64,000 bases of DNA, from positions 4,812,001-4,876,000 of the forward strand of contig NZ_CP045740.1 in assembly GCF_009650765.1 (NCBI RefSeq). Reading direction: 5' to 3'. Positions within the stretch are counted from its first letter, which is position 1. Each line of letters starts with the position of its first letter. This DNA comes from Streptomyces sp. SUK 48. GTDB taxonomy: Bacteria; Actinomycetota; Actinomycetes; Streptomycetales; Streptomycetaceae. Below, piece after piece: positions 5,972 to 12,155 of the stretch. The notes beneath the pieces were generated by a model. It saw only the letters and a list, made by a program, of their open reading frames with translations. It searched no databases and was not told the DNA's origin. A program made the translations under genes and the position numbers.

Positions 5972-6586
5972 TCAGGCGAAGCGGCGGACCCCGGACGGCG
6001 TCACCACCGCGTGCACCGGCCGGTCGTGCGCCTCCGCCGGGACCCGCGCGACGACCTCCGTGTCGTAGAGCAGCACCACGAGACGGGGCCGCGCGCCCGC
6101 GCGCTCCAGCCGGGCCAGGACCCGGTCGTACGAGCCGCCGCCGCGCCCCAGCCGCATCCCGCGCGTGTCCACCGCGAGTCCGGGCAGCAGGACCACGTCC
6201 GCGCCCGTCACGGCGTCCGGGCCGAGCCGCGGGCCCGAGGGTTCGAGAAGGGCCATCTTCGAGCCGTGCCGGACCTCCCTCAGCGAGCCGGGCCCGGTGT
6301 ACTCCCCCCAGTCCAGGTCGTTGTCCGCGAGCAGCGCGGGGAGCAGGACACGCGCGCCCCGCGCCCGCAACGCGTCGAGGAGTGCGCCGGTGCCGGGTTC
6401 CGCGCCGACGGAGACGTACGCGGCGACCGTGCGCGCCCCCGCCAGTTCGGGCAGCTCCAGGGCGCGCGCGGCCAGCGCCCGGCCCGACTCCCGTACGTCG
6501 TCCTCCGGCAGCCCGTTCCTCATCGCGAGGAGGCTCCGCCGCAAGGTCCTCTTGTCAGGCTCGTCCACGCGTCCGTCGTGTTCCAC
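5972..6586 (-). CDS. 5-formyltetrahydrofolate cyclo-ligase
   Basis: Cytoplasmic ATP-dependent enzyme that converts 5-formyl-THF to 5,10-methenyl-THF and so recycles this storage folate. The family signature LPGLAVDTRGMRLGRGGGSY is present, with its glycine-rich, arginine-containing nucleotide/folate site, followed by DRVLARL. The N-terminus DKRTLRRSLLAMRNGL matches the usual start of the family. GTG 6586 is preferred because GGGAA lies about seven bases upstream; GTG 6601 and GTG 6571 are alternatives. At about 204 residues the length is normal. It runs divergently from galU. Confidence 0.88.
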   Translation of the reverse strand: MEHDGRVDEPDKRTLRRSLLAMRNGLPEDDVRESGRALAARALELPELAGARTVAAYVSVGAEPGTGALLDALRARGARVLLPALLADNDLDWGEYTGPGSLREVRHGSKMALLEPSGPRLGPDAVTGADVVLLPGLAVDTRGMRLGRGGGSYDRVLARLERAGARPRLVVLLYDTEVVARVPAEAHDRPVHAVVTPSGVRRFA

Positions 6587-6708
6587 GGGTCGTTCCCGCA
6601 CCCTTTCCGTCCGCCGTTGCCGGCGTCGATGTCGTCCCGGTCGTCGTCAAAGGGTGGGCCAAGCGCAGCCCCAGGTCGCACCAAGGGTCGCCGGTTAAGG
6701 TGGCGGGC

Positions 6709-7620
6709 ATGACTCAGTCGCACCCCAGGATCAGCAAGGCTGTCATTCCGGCGGCGGGTCTTGGTACCCGGTTCCTGCCGGCGACCAAGGCCACTCCCAA
6801 GGAGATGCTGCCGGTCGTCGACAAGCCCGCGATCCAGTACGTGGTCGAGGAGGCCGTGACCGCGGGGCTCGACGACGTTCTCATGATCACCGGTCGCAAC
6901 AAGCGTCCCCTGGAGGACCACTTCGACCGCAACTACGAGCTGGAATCCGCCCTCCAGAAGAAGGGCGACGCGAGCCGGCTCGCGAAGGTGCAGGAGTCCA
7001 GCGACCTGGCGACCATGCACTACGTCCGCCAGGGCGACCCCAGGGGCCTCGGCCACGCCGTGCTGTGCGCCGCCCCGCACGTCGGCCACGAGCCCTTCGC
7101 GGTCCTCCTCGGCGACGACCTGATCGACCCCCGCGACCCCCTGCTCCAGCGCATGATCGAGGTCCAGGAGCGGCACGGCGGCAGCGTGATCGCCCTCATG
7201 GAGGTCGCGCCCGAGCAGATCCACCTCTACGGCTGCGCCGCCGTCGAGGCCACCGCCGAGGGCGACGTCGTCAAGATCACCGGCTTGGTCGAGAAGCCCG
7301 ACCCCGCCGACGCCCCCTCCAACTACGCGATCATCGGCCGCTATGTCCTCGACCCGCACGTCTTCGACATACTGCGCACGACGGAACCGGGCCGCGGCGG
7401 CGAGATCCAGCTGACCGACGCGCTCCAGCAGCTCGCCGACGACGAGAAGGCCGGCGGCCCGGTGCACGGCGTCGTCTTCCAGGGCCGCCGCTACGACACC
7501 GGCGACCGGGGCGACTATCTGCGTGCCATTGTCAGGCTCGCATGCGAACGTGAAGACCTGGGCCCGGACTTCCGGACCTGGCTCCGCAGTTACGTAGCCG
7601 AGGAGATGCAGCAGAGTTGA
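6709..7620 (+). CDS. galU: UTP--glucose-1-phosphate uridylyltransferase
   Basis: Makes UDP-glucose from UTP and glucose-1-phosphate, for cell-wall glycans, trehalose and the Leloir pathway (galactose genes lie at 50-53 kb). The nucleotidyltransferase N-terminus [21 protein letters not shown] is intact. The catalytic/substrate segments LLGDDLI, GLVEKP and [12 protein letters not shown] are also present. Length is 303 residues, typical of bacterial GalU. ATG 6709 has AAGG upstream; the longer open frame upstream is antisense to the neighbouring gene and is not coding. Its TGA overlaps the TTG start of the moeA-like gene (TTGA), so the two are probably translationally coupled. It heads a conserved actinobacterial operon. 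Confidence 0.95.
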
Positions 7621-8939
7621 GCAGCGCCGCGCCCCGCCCGACCGGCGAAGACGACCTGTGGTCGGTGGATCAGCACCTGGAGGACATCCTCGCCACGGTC
7701 CAGCCCCTGGAGCCCATCGAACTCCAACTGCTCGACGCCCAGGGCTGTGTCCTGGTCGAGGACGTCACGGTGCCGGTGTCCCTGCCGCCGTTCGACAACA
7801 GCTCGATGGACGGGTACGCGGTGCGGGTCGCCGATGTCGCGGGCGCCAGCGAGGAGTTCCCGGCCGCCCTGGAGGTCGTCGGGGACGTCGCGGCCGGCGC
7901 GGACGACCCGGTGCGCGTCGGACCGGGCCAGGCCGCCCGCATCATGACCGGCGCCCCGCTGCCGCCCGGCGCCGAGGCCGTCGTCCCCGTGGAGTGGACC
8001 GACGGCGGACTCGGCGAGGGCCCGGCCGGCGGCATGCGGGCCCGCAGCCTCGCCCCCGAGGACGCCGAGGGCCAGGTGCGCGTGCACCGGCCCGTCGAGG
8101 CCCGCGCGCACGTACGGGCCGAGGGCAGCGACGTGAAGGCGGGCGACCACGCCCTCCAGGCCGGTACGATCCTCGGCCCGCCGCAGATCGCGCTGCTCGC
8201 CGCGATCGGCCGGGGCACGGTGAAGGTGCGCCCGCGCCCGCGCGTGGTCGTCGTCTCCACCGGCAGCGAACTCGTCCAGCCTGGCGAGCAGCTGAGCCGC
8301 GGCCGGATCTACGACTCCAACAGCTTCGCCCTCACCGCCGCCGCGCGGGACGCGGGCGCCATCGCCTACCGGGTGGGCGCCGTCGCCGACGACGCCGACA
8401 CCCTGCGCTCGACCATCGAGGACCAGCTGATCCGCGCCGACCTGCTGGTCACCACGGGCGGGGTGAGCGTCGGGGCGTACGACGTGGTCAAGGAGGCGCT
8501 GGCGGACATCGGCGACGAGGACGTGCCGGGCAGCGGCATCGAGTTCCGCAAGCTGGCCATGCAGCCCGGCAAGCCCCAGGGCTTCGGCTCCATCGGCCCC
8601 GACCACACGCCGCTGCTCGCGCTGCCGGGCAACCCCGTGTCGTCGTACGTCTCCTTCGAGCTGTTCGCCCGCCCCGCGATCCGCGCCCTGATGGGCCTCA
8701 CCGATCTGCACCGGCCGGTGCTGCGGGCCACGCTCACCGCCGACAAGGCGCTCCGCTCCCCGAAGGGCCGCCGGCAGTTCCTGCGGGGCCGGTACGCCGA
8801 CGGGGAGGTCACCCCGGTCGGCGGCGCGGGCTCCCACCTGGTGGCGGCGCTGGCGCACGCGGACGCGCTGATCGTCGTACCCGAGGACATGGAGTCCGTG
8901 GAGCCCGGCACCGAGGTGGAGGTCGTCGTGCTCGGCTGA
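7617..8939 (+). CDS. moeA: MoeA-like molybdopterin molybdotransferase / gephyrin-like protein (Glp)
   Basis: A 440-residue MoeA-family protein. Known MoeA inserts molybdate into adenylylated molybdopterin. Visible motifs are [11 protein letters not shown] near residue 62, the MPT-binding-like [11 protein letters not shown] near 282 and LPGNPVSSY near 340, followed by the C-terminal domain IV. The TTG start overlaps the galU stop by four bases. Its place between galU and rimJ/sepX matches the Mycobacterium galU-moeA1-rimJ-Rv0996 order and the Corynebacterium glp-glpR locus, where the MoeA-like Glp binds FtsZ and the membrane protein GlpR. It may therefore act in cofactor synthesis, in division, or in both. 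Linkage to moaC and mogA here supports at least a cofactor role. Confidence 0.88.
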
Positions 8940-9043
8940 GGCACGTCCTGGGCGGCTGCGCGCGGCTGCTTGGCGGTACCGTGTCGCGCACAGCAGGCCC
9001 GCGCACCGCACGGCGCGGGCCCGGACCGGGAGCGCCGCACAGC

Positions 9044-9556
9044 ATGACCGAACCGTCCCGGGGGCAGACCCCCGGATCCCCCGCCCAGGACCACCTCACG
9101 CACCTCGACGCGGCCGGCGCGGCCCGCATGGTCGACGTCTCCGGCAAGGACGTCACCGCGCGCACCGCACGCGCCGGCGGCCGTGTCCTCGTCTCGCCCC
9201 GCGTGATCGAACTGCTGCGCGGCGAGGGGGTGCCCAAGGGAGACGCGCTGGCCACCGCGCGGATCGCGGGCATCATGGGCGCCAAGCGCACCCCGGACCT
9301 GATCCCGCTCTGCCACCCGTTGTCGGTGTCGGGTGTGAAACTGGACCTGTCGGTCGCGGACGACGCCGTGGAGATCCTGGCCACCGTGAAGACCACGGAC
9401 CGCACGGGTGTCGAGATGGAGGCCCTCACCGCGGTGACGGTCGCCGCGCTCACCGTGATCGACATGGTCAAGGCGGTCGACAAGGGAGCGGTCATCACGG
9501 ACGTACGCGTGCTGGAGAAGACGGGCGGCAAGTCGGGCGACTGGAGCCGGGCATGA
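9044..9556 (+). CDS. moaC: Cyclic pyranopterin monophosphate synthase MoaC
   Basis: Works with MoaA to make cyclic pyranopterin monophosphate, the first intermediate of molybdenum cofactor. The 170-residue protein contains the family core [18 protein letters not shown] and the active-site segments [16 protein letters not shown] and [17 protein letters not shown], including the conserved KAVDKG lysine/aspartate pair. ATG 9044 is chosen; the longer frame upstream is the out-of-frame shadow of moeA. Its stop overlaps the mogA start (ATGA), so the two are coupled. Confidence 0.95.
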
Positions 9557-10053
9557 GCTACCGCGCCCTGGTGATCACCGCCTCCAACCGGGCCGCCGCG
9601 GGCGTCTACGAGGACCGGGGCGGCCCGCTGATCGCGGACGGCCTCACGCGCCTCGGCTTCGCCGTGGACGGCCCCCGGGTCGTGCCCGACGGGGAGCCGG
9701 TCGAGGCCGCCCTGCGCGAGGGCGCCGCCGCCGGGTACGACGCGATCGTCACCACCGGCGGCACCGGCCTCACCCCGACCGACCGCACCCCCGAGGCGAC
9801 CCGCGCCGTCATCGACCACGAGGTGCCGGGCATCGCCGAGGCGATCCGGGCGTTCGGCAGGGAGAAGGTGCCGACCGCCGCGCTGTCCCGCGGGGTGGCC
9901 GGGGTCGCCGGCCGGACCCTGATCGTCAACCTGCCGGGGTCCACGGGCGGGGTGAAGGACGGACTGGCCGTCCTGGAGCCCCTGCTGGCCCACGCCGTCG
10001 ACCAGCTCCGCGGCGGCGACCACGCCAGACCCGGCTCGGGGGGTGCGAACTGA
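9553..10053 (+). CDS. mogA: Molybdopterin adenylyltransferase MogA/MoaB family
   Basis: Adenylates molybdopterin before metal insertion by MoeA. The 166-residue MoCF-fold protein has the MPT-binding motif [17 protein letters not shown], the [14 protein letters not shown] segment and the N-terminal [20 protein letters not shown]. The start overlaps moaC by four bases and the stop overlaps the next gene's CTG start. moeA-moaC-mogA therefore supplies three steps of the pathway in one transcript. MoaB and MogA paralogues are hard to separate by sequence, so the exact paralogue name is tentative. Confidence 0.9.
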
Positions 10054-10682
10054 ACGGGTCGACCTGGCCGGTCGTGCTGGTGGACGGCGAGGTCGTCCTG
10101 CGGCCGATAAAGCTGCGCGACCAGCGCGAGTGGCGCGAGGTGAACCGCCGCAACCGCGACTGGCTGCGCCCCTGGGAGGCCACGATCCCGCCGCCCACCC
10201 CGAGCGGCCCGGTCGCGCACCGGCCGACGTACCGGCAGATGGTCCGGCATCTGCGCCGCGAGGCGCAGGCGGGCCGGATGCTGCCGTTCGTCATCGAGTA
10301 CCAGGGGCGCCTGGTGGGGCAGTTGACGGTCGCCGGGATCACCTGGGGGTCGATGTGCTCCGGGCACATCGGCTACTGGGTGGACGAGTCGGTGGCCGGG
10401 CGCGGGGTGATGCCGACGGCCGTCGCGCTGGTGGTGGACCACTGTTTCCGCACCGTCGGACTGCACCGCATCGAGGTGTGCATCCGCCCCGAGAACCGGC
10501 CCAGCCGCCGGGTGGTGGAGAAGCTCGGATTCCGCGAGGAGGGGCTGCGGCCGCGCTACCTGCACATCGACGGCGCCTGGCGCGACCATCTGGTCTTCGC
10601 GATGACCGCCGAGGAGGTGCCGGACGGGCTGCTCGGACGGTGGCGGAGGGCACGATCGGCGGCACAAGGACCGAGAAATTGA
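10050..10682 (+). CDS. GNAT acetyltransferase, RimJ/RimL type
   Basis: Cytoplasmic N-acetyltransferase of about 210 residues, related to the ribosomal-protein N-terminal acetyltransferases. Motifs in order are VVLRPIKLRDQREWREV, GHIGYWVDESVAGRGVMPTAV (acetyl-CoA loop) and HRIEVCIRPENRPSRRVVEKLG. CTG 10050 is the probable start because GGGGGG lies just upstream and it overlaps the mogA stop (CTGA); GTG 10071 is the alternative. It matches the rimJ gene that lies between moeA and glpR in mycobacteria. Its real substrate is unknown, and a link to the neighbouring division factor is inference from gene order alone. Confidence 0.85.
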   Translation: MNGSTWPVVLVDGEVVLRPIKLRDQREWREVNRRNRDWLRPWEATIPPPTPSGPVAHRPTYRQMVRHLRREAQAGRMLPFVIEYQGRLVGQLTVAGITWGSMCSGHIGYWVDESVAGRGVMPTAVALVVDHCFRTVGLHRIEVCIRPENRPSRRVVEKLGFREEGLRPRYLHIDGAWRDHLVFAMTAEEVPDGLLGRWRRARSAAQGPRN

Positions 10683-10803
10683 ATATGCGTTCGAAATTCT
10701 GATCCTAAGGGTCGCAAAAAATGCTGGAAATATCAGCCAGATCGTGCGACACACCGGCTCAATTGGCGGATACCTTCGGTCAAACCCCTCTACCGTGTGA
10801 GTC

Positions 10804-11991
10804 GTGAGCAGCAGCGGCCTCATCTACGCAGTCATCGTCGGGGCCTGGGCCGCCTACTTGGTGCCGATGTGGCTCCGTAGGCAGGACGAGCTGAACGAGG
10901 CCCGTCCGACGGAACGCTTCAGCACCGCCATCCGGCTGCTTTCCGGACGGGCGGGGATGGAGCGCCGATACGCCAAGGACCTGCGGGCGCGCTCCACCGA
11001 CGAGGGGGAGCAGGGCGCCGTCGATCCGGACGCCGTCACCGATTCGGTGGACGTCCGGTCCTTCGCCATGCCTCCGACCCGCCGTCAGGTCACGGTGGAG
11101 GGCGAGCCCGAGGCGTCCCGCGACCCGGAATCCGACCGGGGCCACGCCGACCGGGGCCACGCCCCCGCGGTCCCGGCCCAGAAGCACGTACCGGCACCCC
11201 GGCGCGCCCCGTCGTCCCCCTCGGCGCAGGCGGCCGCGGCGCGGGCCCGGCGCACGAAGGTGCTCGCGCGCCGCCGGCGCACCACCGTGCTGCTCTTCCT
11301 CGCCTTCACCATCGGCGCGGTCGTCGCCGCCGTGGGCGGCCTCGCCTTCCTGTGGGCGCCCGCCGCGCCCGCCGTGCTCCTCAGCGCGTACATCGCCTAT
11401 CTGCGGTCCCAGGAACGGCGCCGGTTCGCCTTCCAGATGGACCGCCGCCACGCCGAGGCCGCCGCCCAGCGACTGCGTGAGCGCCAGCCGCGCCGGCGCG
11501 CGACCCCGGAGGCCGCCCGCGCCGCCGACGAACCGGAGGAGGTCACAGGGACCGACACGGACCCCGGCCTCTCCACGCTCGCCGCCGACCGGCGTGCCCT
11601 GGTCGAGCAGACCGACCACGCCGAGTGGGTCGACCAGCAGCGCGAGCGGCAGCGGCGGCCCGGACATGGCGACAGCTGGGACCCGGTGCCGGTGCCCCTG
11701 CCCACGTACGTGACCGCGCCGGTCGCGCCGCGGGCCACCGCCGGCGTCGACCTGGGCGGCCCGGACACCTGGAGCTCGGCGCGGTCCAGCTCGGTCGCCC
11801 CGGAGCAGGAGGCGGACCAGGCGCCCGTGGCCGGGGAGCGCGAGCCGGCGGCCGGCGCGGCGGACCGGCCGGCCGACGGCCGCGGCGGCGCGCGCCGCGC
11901 CGCCTCCGCCCGCCGCTCCCGTGAGCGCGGCCGTACGCCGCTCTTCGACCAGTACGAGGACGGCGACCGTCCGCGTGCCGCCAACGAGTGA
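10804..11991 (+). CDS. sepX: SepX/GlpR-type cell division membrane protein
   Basis: A 395-residue membrane protein. One span lies at the extreme N-terminus (SSSGLIYAVIVGAWAAYLVP), followed by the conserved MWLRRQDELNEARPTERFS. A charged cytoplasmic stretch then leads to two spans near residues 160-200 (TTVLLFLAFTIGAVVAAVGG and LWAPAAPAVLLSAYIAYL). The remainder is a long, disordered Arg/Ala/Glu-rich tail ending LFDQYEDGDRPRAANE. This layout, and the place after galU-moeA-rimJ, match SepX, needed for normal septation in Streptomyces, and its homologue GlpR, the receptor for the MoeA-like Glp. It lies 121 bp after the rimJ-like gene and starts GTG 10804, so it may have its own promoter. Assignment is by recalled family features and synteny. 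Confidence 0.75.
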   Translation: MSSSGLIYAVIVGAWAAYLVPMWLRRQDELNEARPTERFSTAIRLLSGRAGMERRYAKDLRARSTDEGEQGAVDPDAVTDSVDVRSFAMPPTRRQVTVEGEPEASRDPESDRGHADRGHAPAVPAQKHVPAPRRAPSSPSAQAAAARARRTKVLARRRRTTVLLFLAFTIGAVVAAVGGLAFLWAPAAPAVLLSAYIAYLRSQERRRFAFQMDRRHAEAAAQRLRERQPRRRATPEAARAADEPEEVTGTDTDPGLSTLAADRRALVEQTDHAEWVDQQRERQRRPGHGDSWDPVPVPLPTYVTAPVAPRATAGVDLGGPDTWSSARSSSVAPEQEADQAPVAGEREPAAGAADRPADGRGGARRAASARRSRERGRTPLFDQYEDGDRPRAANE

Positions 11992-12081: not shown

Positions 12082-12155
12082 GGGCCTGTGGCGCAGTCCG
12101 GTAGCGCACCTCGTTCGCATCGAGGGGGCCAGGGGTTCGAATCCCCTCAGGTCCA
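12082..12155 (+). tRNA. tRNA-Ala (anticodon CGC)
   Basis: The cloverleaf folds fully. The acceptor stem GGGCCTG/CAGGTCC carries the G3:U70 pair that identifies alanine tRNAs. The anticodon stem CCTCG/CGAGG encloses loop TTCGCAT with anticodon CGC, which reads GCG codons. The T arm is AGGGG-TTCGAAT-CCCCT. The discriminator base is A and CCA is not encoded. A strong terminator follows directly. Confidence 0.95.

Follow-up and report, generated by a model that had tools for sequence, protein, structure and literature searches.

Glp of Corynebacterium glutamicum (PDB 8bve/8bvf; PMC10522489) is a relative of the molybdenum insertase MoeA that has lost the active-site motifs of the enzyme and carries a Met/Tyr loop that binds FtsZ; its binding to the membrane protein GlpR has been shown only for this species. 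Glp as a group has been described as a repurposed enzyme whose catalysis is seemingly lost, and Glp-bearing bacteria are stated to have at least two copies of MoeA (PMC11733289). In Streptomyces venezuelae, SepX (vnz_14865) localises to septa and has a division phenotype (PMC8748795), and it was reported in 2022 without a known divisome gene nearby. The locus studied here lies in a stretch of 64,000 nucleotides from Streptomyces sp. SUK 48 (contig NZ_CP045740.1, positions 4,812,001 to 4,876,000; hereafter the window), where six plus-strand genes, galU, glp/moeA, moaC, a mogA-type gene, a rimJ-like gene and sepX, occupy positions 6709-11991 (Table 1). By its sequence, the Glp encoded in this locus (window Glp) is a member of the same family as C. 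glutamicum Glp and not its repurposed, worn-out form. We consider it probable that window Glp is the working Mo-insertase of the moaC-mogA cofactor genes, with a possible second job beside SepX.

Window Glp shares with C. glutamicum Glp the NF045515 family, the second proline hinge and a SepX/GlpR-type neighbour, and C. glutamicum Glp gave the best Foldseek E-value for its predicted structure. The catalytic and FtsZ-binding features are the reverse of those of C. glutamicum: window Glp keeps the active-site motifs and lacks the Met/Tyr loop. At the level of the locus, moaC and mogA stand here between glp and rimJ. The structure model (predicted local distance difference test score, pLDDT, 89.5) matched Cnx1E 5g2r with a template modelling (TM) score of 0.79, 8bve_A with 0.73 and 1g8l_A with 0.63. 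Like Cnx1E and the gephyrin E domain, window Glp is predicted to have the Mo-insertase fold with the active-site positions kept, and the moonlighting scaffold of that system offers an analogy; unlike them, it has no fused MogA domain, and its partner would be SepX. SepX itself resembles its S. venezuelae counterpart in NCBIfam family, in its one plus two membrane spans and in a GACAC box upstream, which fits a WhiAB target, and no difference in kind was seen. What is new, relative to the literature examined, is that window Glp retains a predicted molybdotransferase active site, which is missing from Corynebacterium Glp through loss.

Catalytic residues and the moaC linkage

Window Glp is 36% identical to E. 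coli MoeA and keeps nine of ten listed positions of that enzyme, namely D59, T100, R137, D142, E188, D228, D259, R350 and S371. Nine of the ten were taken from E. coli MoeA mutant crystal structures, as given by their titles, and D259 was added by motif, which maps it to D274 of Cnx1E, where a change from D to E abolishes synthesis of the molybdenum cofactor (Moco) (PMC6954367). D228 is a Mg ligand of MoeA (PMC9458074). The remaining position, K279, is Q in window Glp. Since Q also occupies it in 7/7 MoeAs that have moaC and no sepX, it is no sign of decay peculiar to Glp; a literature search on E. coli MoeA K279 and D59 variants returned nothing relevant.

Glps were grouped by their surroundings. 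The linked set comprises 44 fetched Glps with moaC in the locus plus window Glp, the unlinked set comprises 15 Glps recognised by rimJ-sepX without moaC, and 79 further Glps come from named loci, 16 of which have a flank too short for the moaC check. Loci with glp-moaC and without rimJ or sepX (L100, L107 and the f31 loci L070-L074) were counted as MoeA and not as linked Glp. In the f31 loci moeA adjoins moaC and no galU, rimJ or sepX was found nearby, making them MoeA loci without the division half; a mogA-type match lies several kb off, on the opposite strand.

D228 is kept in all linked (45/45) and named (79/79) Glps and in only 2/15 unlinked ones, a split that persists after clustering at 70% identity (42/42 linked or named clusters, 2/7 unlinked clusters). 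T185 behaves likewise (44/45 linked, 79/79 named, 1/15 unlinked). D259 divides the sets less sharply, since it is E in 3/45 linked and 5/79 named Glps and is kept in 5/15 unlinked ones. The damage in unlinked Glps is also partial: every one of the 15 retains D59, E188, R137 and P298. A comparison over whole columns, with the 45 linked and 42 of the 79 named Glps, found 23 columns conserved in linked Glp and MoeA and lost in unlinked Glp, and none in the reverse direction. By sequence, window Glp looks like an intact Mo-insertase, and D228 is intact in every moaC-linked Glp examined.

What keeps the same residues in place might be molybdopterin binding or scaffold folding rather than turnover. 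Such an account would fit the Q at position 279 and the example of gephyrin, a scaffold with an enzyme fold (also noted in PMC11733289), but the Mg ligand D228 is lost in 13 of the 15 Glps without moaC, which points to catalysis as the reason for its retention elsewhere. We find the scaffold account barely credible.

MoeA copies in Glp-bearing genomes

The genome of strain SUK 48 (8.34 Mb, one contig) encodes two proteins with a MoeA_N domain, window Glp and a paralogue 0.69 Mb away (L008, 7537-9207, minus strand; near 4.13 Mb of C1), and a single moaC, the one beside glp (one PF01967 match). The paralogue adjoins a mobA-like gene, whose mobA match is under its own cut-off. It scores below every NCBIfam MoeA cut-off, lacks equivalents of D142, R350 and S371 and is also changed at the K279 position; it may be a specialised MoeA. 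The possibility that it is the better-preserved enzyme was rejected because more of the listed positions are changed in it than in window Glp, although with D228 and D259 kept it is not callable dead. The initial annotation had named a further Glp-like MoeA in the genome as evidence against its proposal; none was found, the only other MoeA reaching 180 bits on the Glp model against a cut-off of 475. The fourth MoCF domain of the genome lies in an open frame that resembles CinA (a likeness judged by eye and not by family scan).

The presence of a second MoeA agrees with the published account, concluded for Glp as a group (PMC11733289), in which Glp has lost its Moco activity and serves division only, and the true MoeA is the paralogue. 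For window Glp we regard this as very unlikely. Its active-site residues are kept, the paralogue departs from E. coli MoeA at a larger number of the ten listed positions, and many Glp genomes have no other MoeA. Of 393 genomes drawn from across the class, 280 have a Glp that scored over the cut-off, and about 115 of these had exactly one MoeA_N protein by hand tally, including 20/20 genomes of family f17. One genome (G277, best piece at E 1e-136) was excluded from this tally, and another (G042), although searched for molybdoenzymes, was excluded as a sole case because it has two MoeA_N matches.

Checks of 35 sole-Glp genomes found molybdoenzyme domains in every one, together with one moaC, located beside glp. 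PF01568 was found in 35 of them and PF02738 in 31, each genome having at least one of both at E 1e-20 or better. PF01568 is also found in proteins without molybdenum cofactor, and the PF02738 count is hence the firmer of the two. Because the streptomycete Glp keeps its active-site residues and a Glp is the sole MoeA found in many sampled genomes, the published claim of repurposing would have to be restricted to a single lineage. A practical consequence concerns annotation: by the scores obtained here, the NCBI model would give the name 'divisome protein Glp' to the sole molybdotransferase in such genomes.

Proline hinge, FtsZ loop and SepX

The FtsZ-pocket residues M361 and Y369 mark the unlinked Glps, in which they are present in 13/15 and 15/15 proteins, respectively. 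Y369 occurs in 6/45 linked and 11/79 named Glps, and M361 is outside the six leading residues printed for linked Glps. Conversely, the second proline hinge, RPRPR in window Glp, is a feature of Glps of every kind: its motif is present in 41/45 linked, 75/79 named and 15/15 unlinked Glps against 3/22 other MoeAs, and the corresponding PRPR is missing in E. coli MoeA. The first hinge reads PLEP in window Glp and APEP in C. glutamicum Glp. The FtsZ of strain SUK 48 ends in LDVPDFLK, in which the contact residues L, V, P and F are kept. The initial annotation had also counted a loss of the interaction surfaces as evidence against its proposal, and this expectation was half realised: the published FtsZ-loop residues are absent and the proline hinge is present.

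Ten columns are common to linked and unlinked Glps and not to other MoeAs (16 MoeAs, a small diverse set). In window Glp they are V173, L194, P206, A242, R252, Q270, L271, R273, R356 and L439, of which P206 is within the hinge. If unlinked Glps need no catalysis, these positions could be candidates for the second job; shared descent may also explain them.

The partner envisaged for such a job is SepX, found by profile search in 45/45 linked and 15/15 unlinked loci (some of these loci had served as seeds for the profile; motif-based searches missed many loci). The NCBIfam model name joins SepX and GlpR, and no open-licence paper joining SepX with GlpR or Glp was found among the matches listed; the Streptomyces division factor is hereby tied to a Glp-family neighbour. 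Hydropathy places its spans at residues 6-24, 162-180 and 182-200. After the first span there is a juxtamembrane segment (window positions 10880-10960: ERFSTAIRLLSGR; RFSxAMRVL or ALATRVL in relatives), and a loose pattern for it, scored without a shuffled control, matched 54/54 Streptomyces/Kitasatospora, 37/64 other linked and 14/15 unlinked rows. It is a possible docking motif.

Upstream of sepX we find GACAC, the WhiA consensus (PMC3781837). Counting both strands, 117 of 133 loci have it no more than 200 nt from the sepX start, compared with a mean of 52 and a maximum of 74 in 200 shuffles, although the 133 rows include many close relatives. The box fell in the position bin in 54/54 Streptomyces/Kitasatospora rows, 28/64 other linked rows and 0/12 rows of family f4 (see below). 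Five of these 12 have a GACAC elsewhere within 200 nt of the start; among the 36 other linked rows outside the bin, some have one at about -55 or further off and others none. A scan for promoters and terminators found none. With a conserved box of its own, sepX could be independent of the genes before it, and the single transcript including sepX that had been proposed for this locus is doubtful, with read-through from upstream possible.

The conserved box speaks for a purely metabolic account, in which window Glp is an ordinary MoeA, sepX is a mere neighbour with a WhiA-controlled promoter, and a role in division exists only in the FtsZ-loop lineage. The absence from window Glp of the Met/Tyr residues that mark unlinked Glps agrees with it, as does the two-hybrid partner of SepX, which is DynB, the term moeA being absent from the main text of that report (PMC8748795). 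Two facts speak against mere neighbourhood. First, of the 63 named loci whose flanks suffice for scoring neighbours (80 named loci in total), 61 retain both rimJ and a SepX. Second, window Glp has the hinge motif and the ten columns in common with damaged Glps and not with MoeAs without sepX. On balance we hold the purely metabolic account to be rather unlikely.

Our proposal of a working insertase with a second job would operate as follows. The mogA-type protein would adenylate molybdopterin and Glp, to judge from its kept residues, would insert molybdate; a Glp dimer, through its proline hinge and Glp-specific residues, may also partner SepX at division sites. The simplest history would be that one bifunctional Glp is kept in most Actinomycetes with this locus, and that in the lineage of Corynebacterium and certain of its relatives moaC-mogA came to be served by a second MoeA, Glp there having lost catalytic residues and bearing the Met/Tyr loop that binds FtsZ. 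The initial annotation had asked if the MoeA of this locus performs both functions, and the question was apt. We advance only tentatively the broader reading that in most Actinomycetes Glp is a moonlighter, a single product that both inserts molybdenum and, bound to SepX, acts as an adaptor in division, and that a split of both jobs over two copies led, in the Corynebacterium lineage, to the catalytically damaged Glp with the FtsZ loop, a bacterial mirror image of gephyrin. The family offers a natural experiment in the conversion of an enzyme into an adaptor of the cytoskeleton, in which the intact, moaC-linked Glps appear to represent the earlier state and the damaged ones with the FtsZ loop the later one.

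Split loci and layout of the locus

In family f4, all 12 loci that were fetched show galU-glp-rimJ together with a SepX, with no moaC-mogA between. We took this family as Mycobacteriales (kin of Corynebacterium and Mycobacterium) from its likeness to C. glutamicum Glp. In one of the genomes concerned (G347), moaC is beside a second MoeA. Genomes G361, G332 and G082 have two copies each, and in all three the rimJ-sepX copy is the more damaged, by differing residues: T100A, D228A and N300E in G361, where the moaC-side copy is intact except for D259E; T100S and N300D in G332, where the moaC-side copy is intact; and T100A, D142E and N300E in G082, where the other copy has D142E.

The tree places the 15 unlinked Glps together, as a single group within the linked ones; without the longest rows, they need two changes. 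The damaged copies may have been drawn together by long branches. As moaC adjoins MoeA also in MoeA loci outside the Glp group, the simpler, though unproven, reading is that the moaC-mogA linkage is ancestral and was lost from the loci without moaC, and it is on this ground that we infer the direction of change. The opposite idea, that moaC and mogA were inserted into a division locus, had been put forward in the initial annotation and was rejected, although an approximately unbiased (AU) test, in which a linked-only clade was not rejected (p 0.283), leaves the direction open.

This test weighs against our proposal, and so do several other observations. Window Glp has a gap and a G at the M361 and Y369 columns, so that FtsZ binding in the known manner is unsupported. 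The paralogue, with D228 and D259 retained, could make the cofactor, and window Glp itself departs from the E. coli enzyme at K279. The damaged copies of G332 and G082 still have D228, and the moaC-side copies are imperfect in G082 and G361. Finally, the model does not settle whether the hinge is open or closed, since the Z scores for 5g2r and 8bve_A are tied.

Family models over the whole stretch of six genes bear out the gene order first read from the DNA (Table 1), including kinship with the Corynebacterium glp-glpR locus and the identity of the last protein as SepX with one plus two spans. The glp/moeA product has all three MoeA domains, PF03453, PF00994 and PF03454, over cut-off. Two labels are best kept broad. 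The mogA-type protein reaches 103.8 bits on the MogA equivalog model PRK09417, under its cut-off of 158. The rimJ-like protein reaches 78 bits on the RimJ model PRK10809, under its cut-off of 190, and of the earlier rimJ label only the GNAT (GCN5-related N-acetyltransferase) domain is supported; its start may be a few codons further upstream. The four-base overlaps described earlier exist between galU and glp (TTGA, with a TTG start) and between moaC and mogA (ATGA); the other junctions are gaps, of 104 nt between glp and moaC, 20 nt between mogA and rimJ and 121 nt between rimJ and sepX.

Table 1. Features of the locus in window coordinates, with the evidence for each
Feature	Position	Strand	Evidence
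galU, UTP-glucose-1-phosphate uridylyltransferase, 303 aa	6709..7620	+	TIGR01099 344.8 bits, cut-off 326.8
glp/moeA, Glp sequence family, 440 aa, TTG start	7617..8939	+	NF045515 Glp_gephyrin 573.3 bits, cut-off 475; active-site residues kept
moaC, cyclic pyranopterin monophosphate synthase	9044..9556	+	TIGR00581 204.4 bits, cut-off 141.5
mogA-type molybdopterin adenylyltransferase, MoCF domain, 166 aa	9553..10053	+	PF00994 over cut-off; TIGR00177 105.9 bits, cut-off 85.35
rimJ-like GNAT N-acetyltransferase	10074..10682	+	PF13302 73.2 bits, over cut-off
GACAC box (WhiA consensus), 56 nt before sepX start	10748..10752	+	same place in relatives; motif per PMC3781837
sepX, SepX/GlpR-type divisome membrane protein, 395 aa	10804..11991	+	NF050099 SepX_GlpR_2 251.4 bits, cut-off 150; hydropathy

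The arrangement is ordinary for Actinomycetes. Among the 63 named loci with sufficient flank, 53 keep galU, moaC, mogA, rimJ and a SepX together, which places the order beyond chance, and moaC is present in all 63; the same order recurs across many further families outside the named loci. Window Glp is up to 88% identical to the Glps of the nearest named loci. The parts are already known, since NCBIfam has names for both division-related products: Glp_gephyrin for the MoeA and SepX/GlpR for the protein encoded last. A 5-formyltetrahydrofolate cyclo-ligase gene (5972-6601, minus strand) is divergent from galU, and such a gene lies upstream of glp on the opposite strand in most fetched Glp loci. 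A tRNA gene (12082-12155) directly follows sepX.

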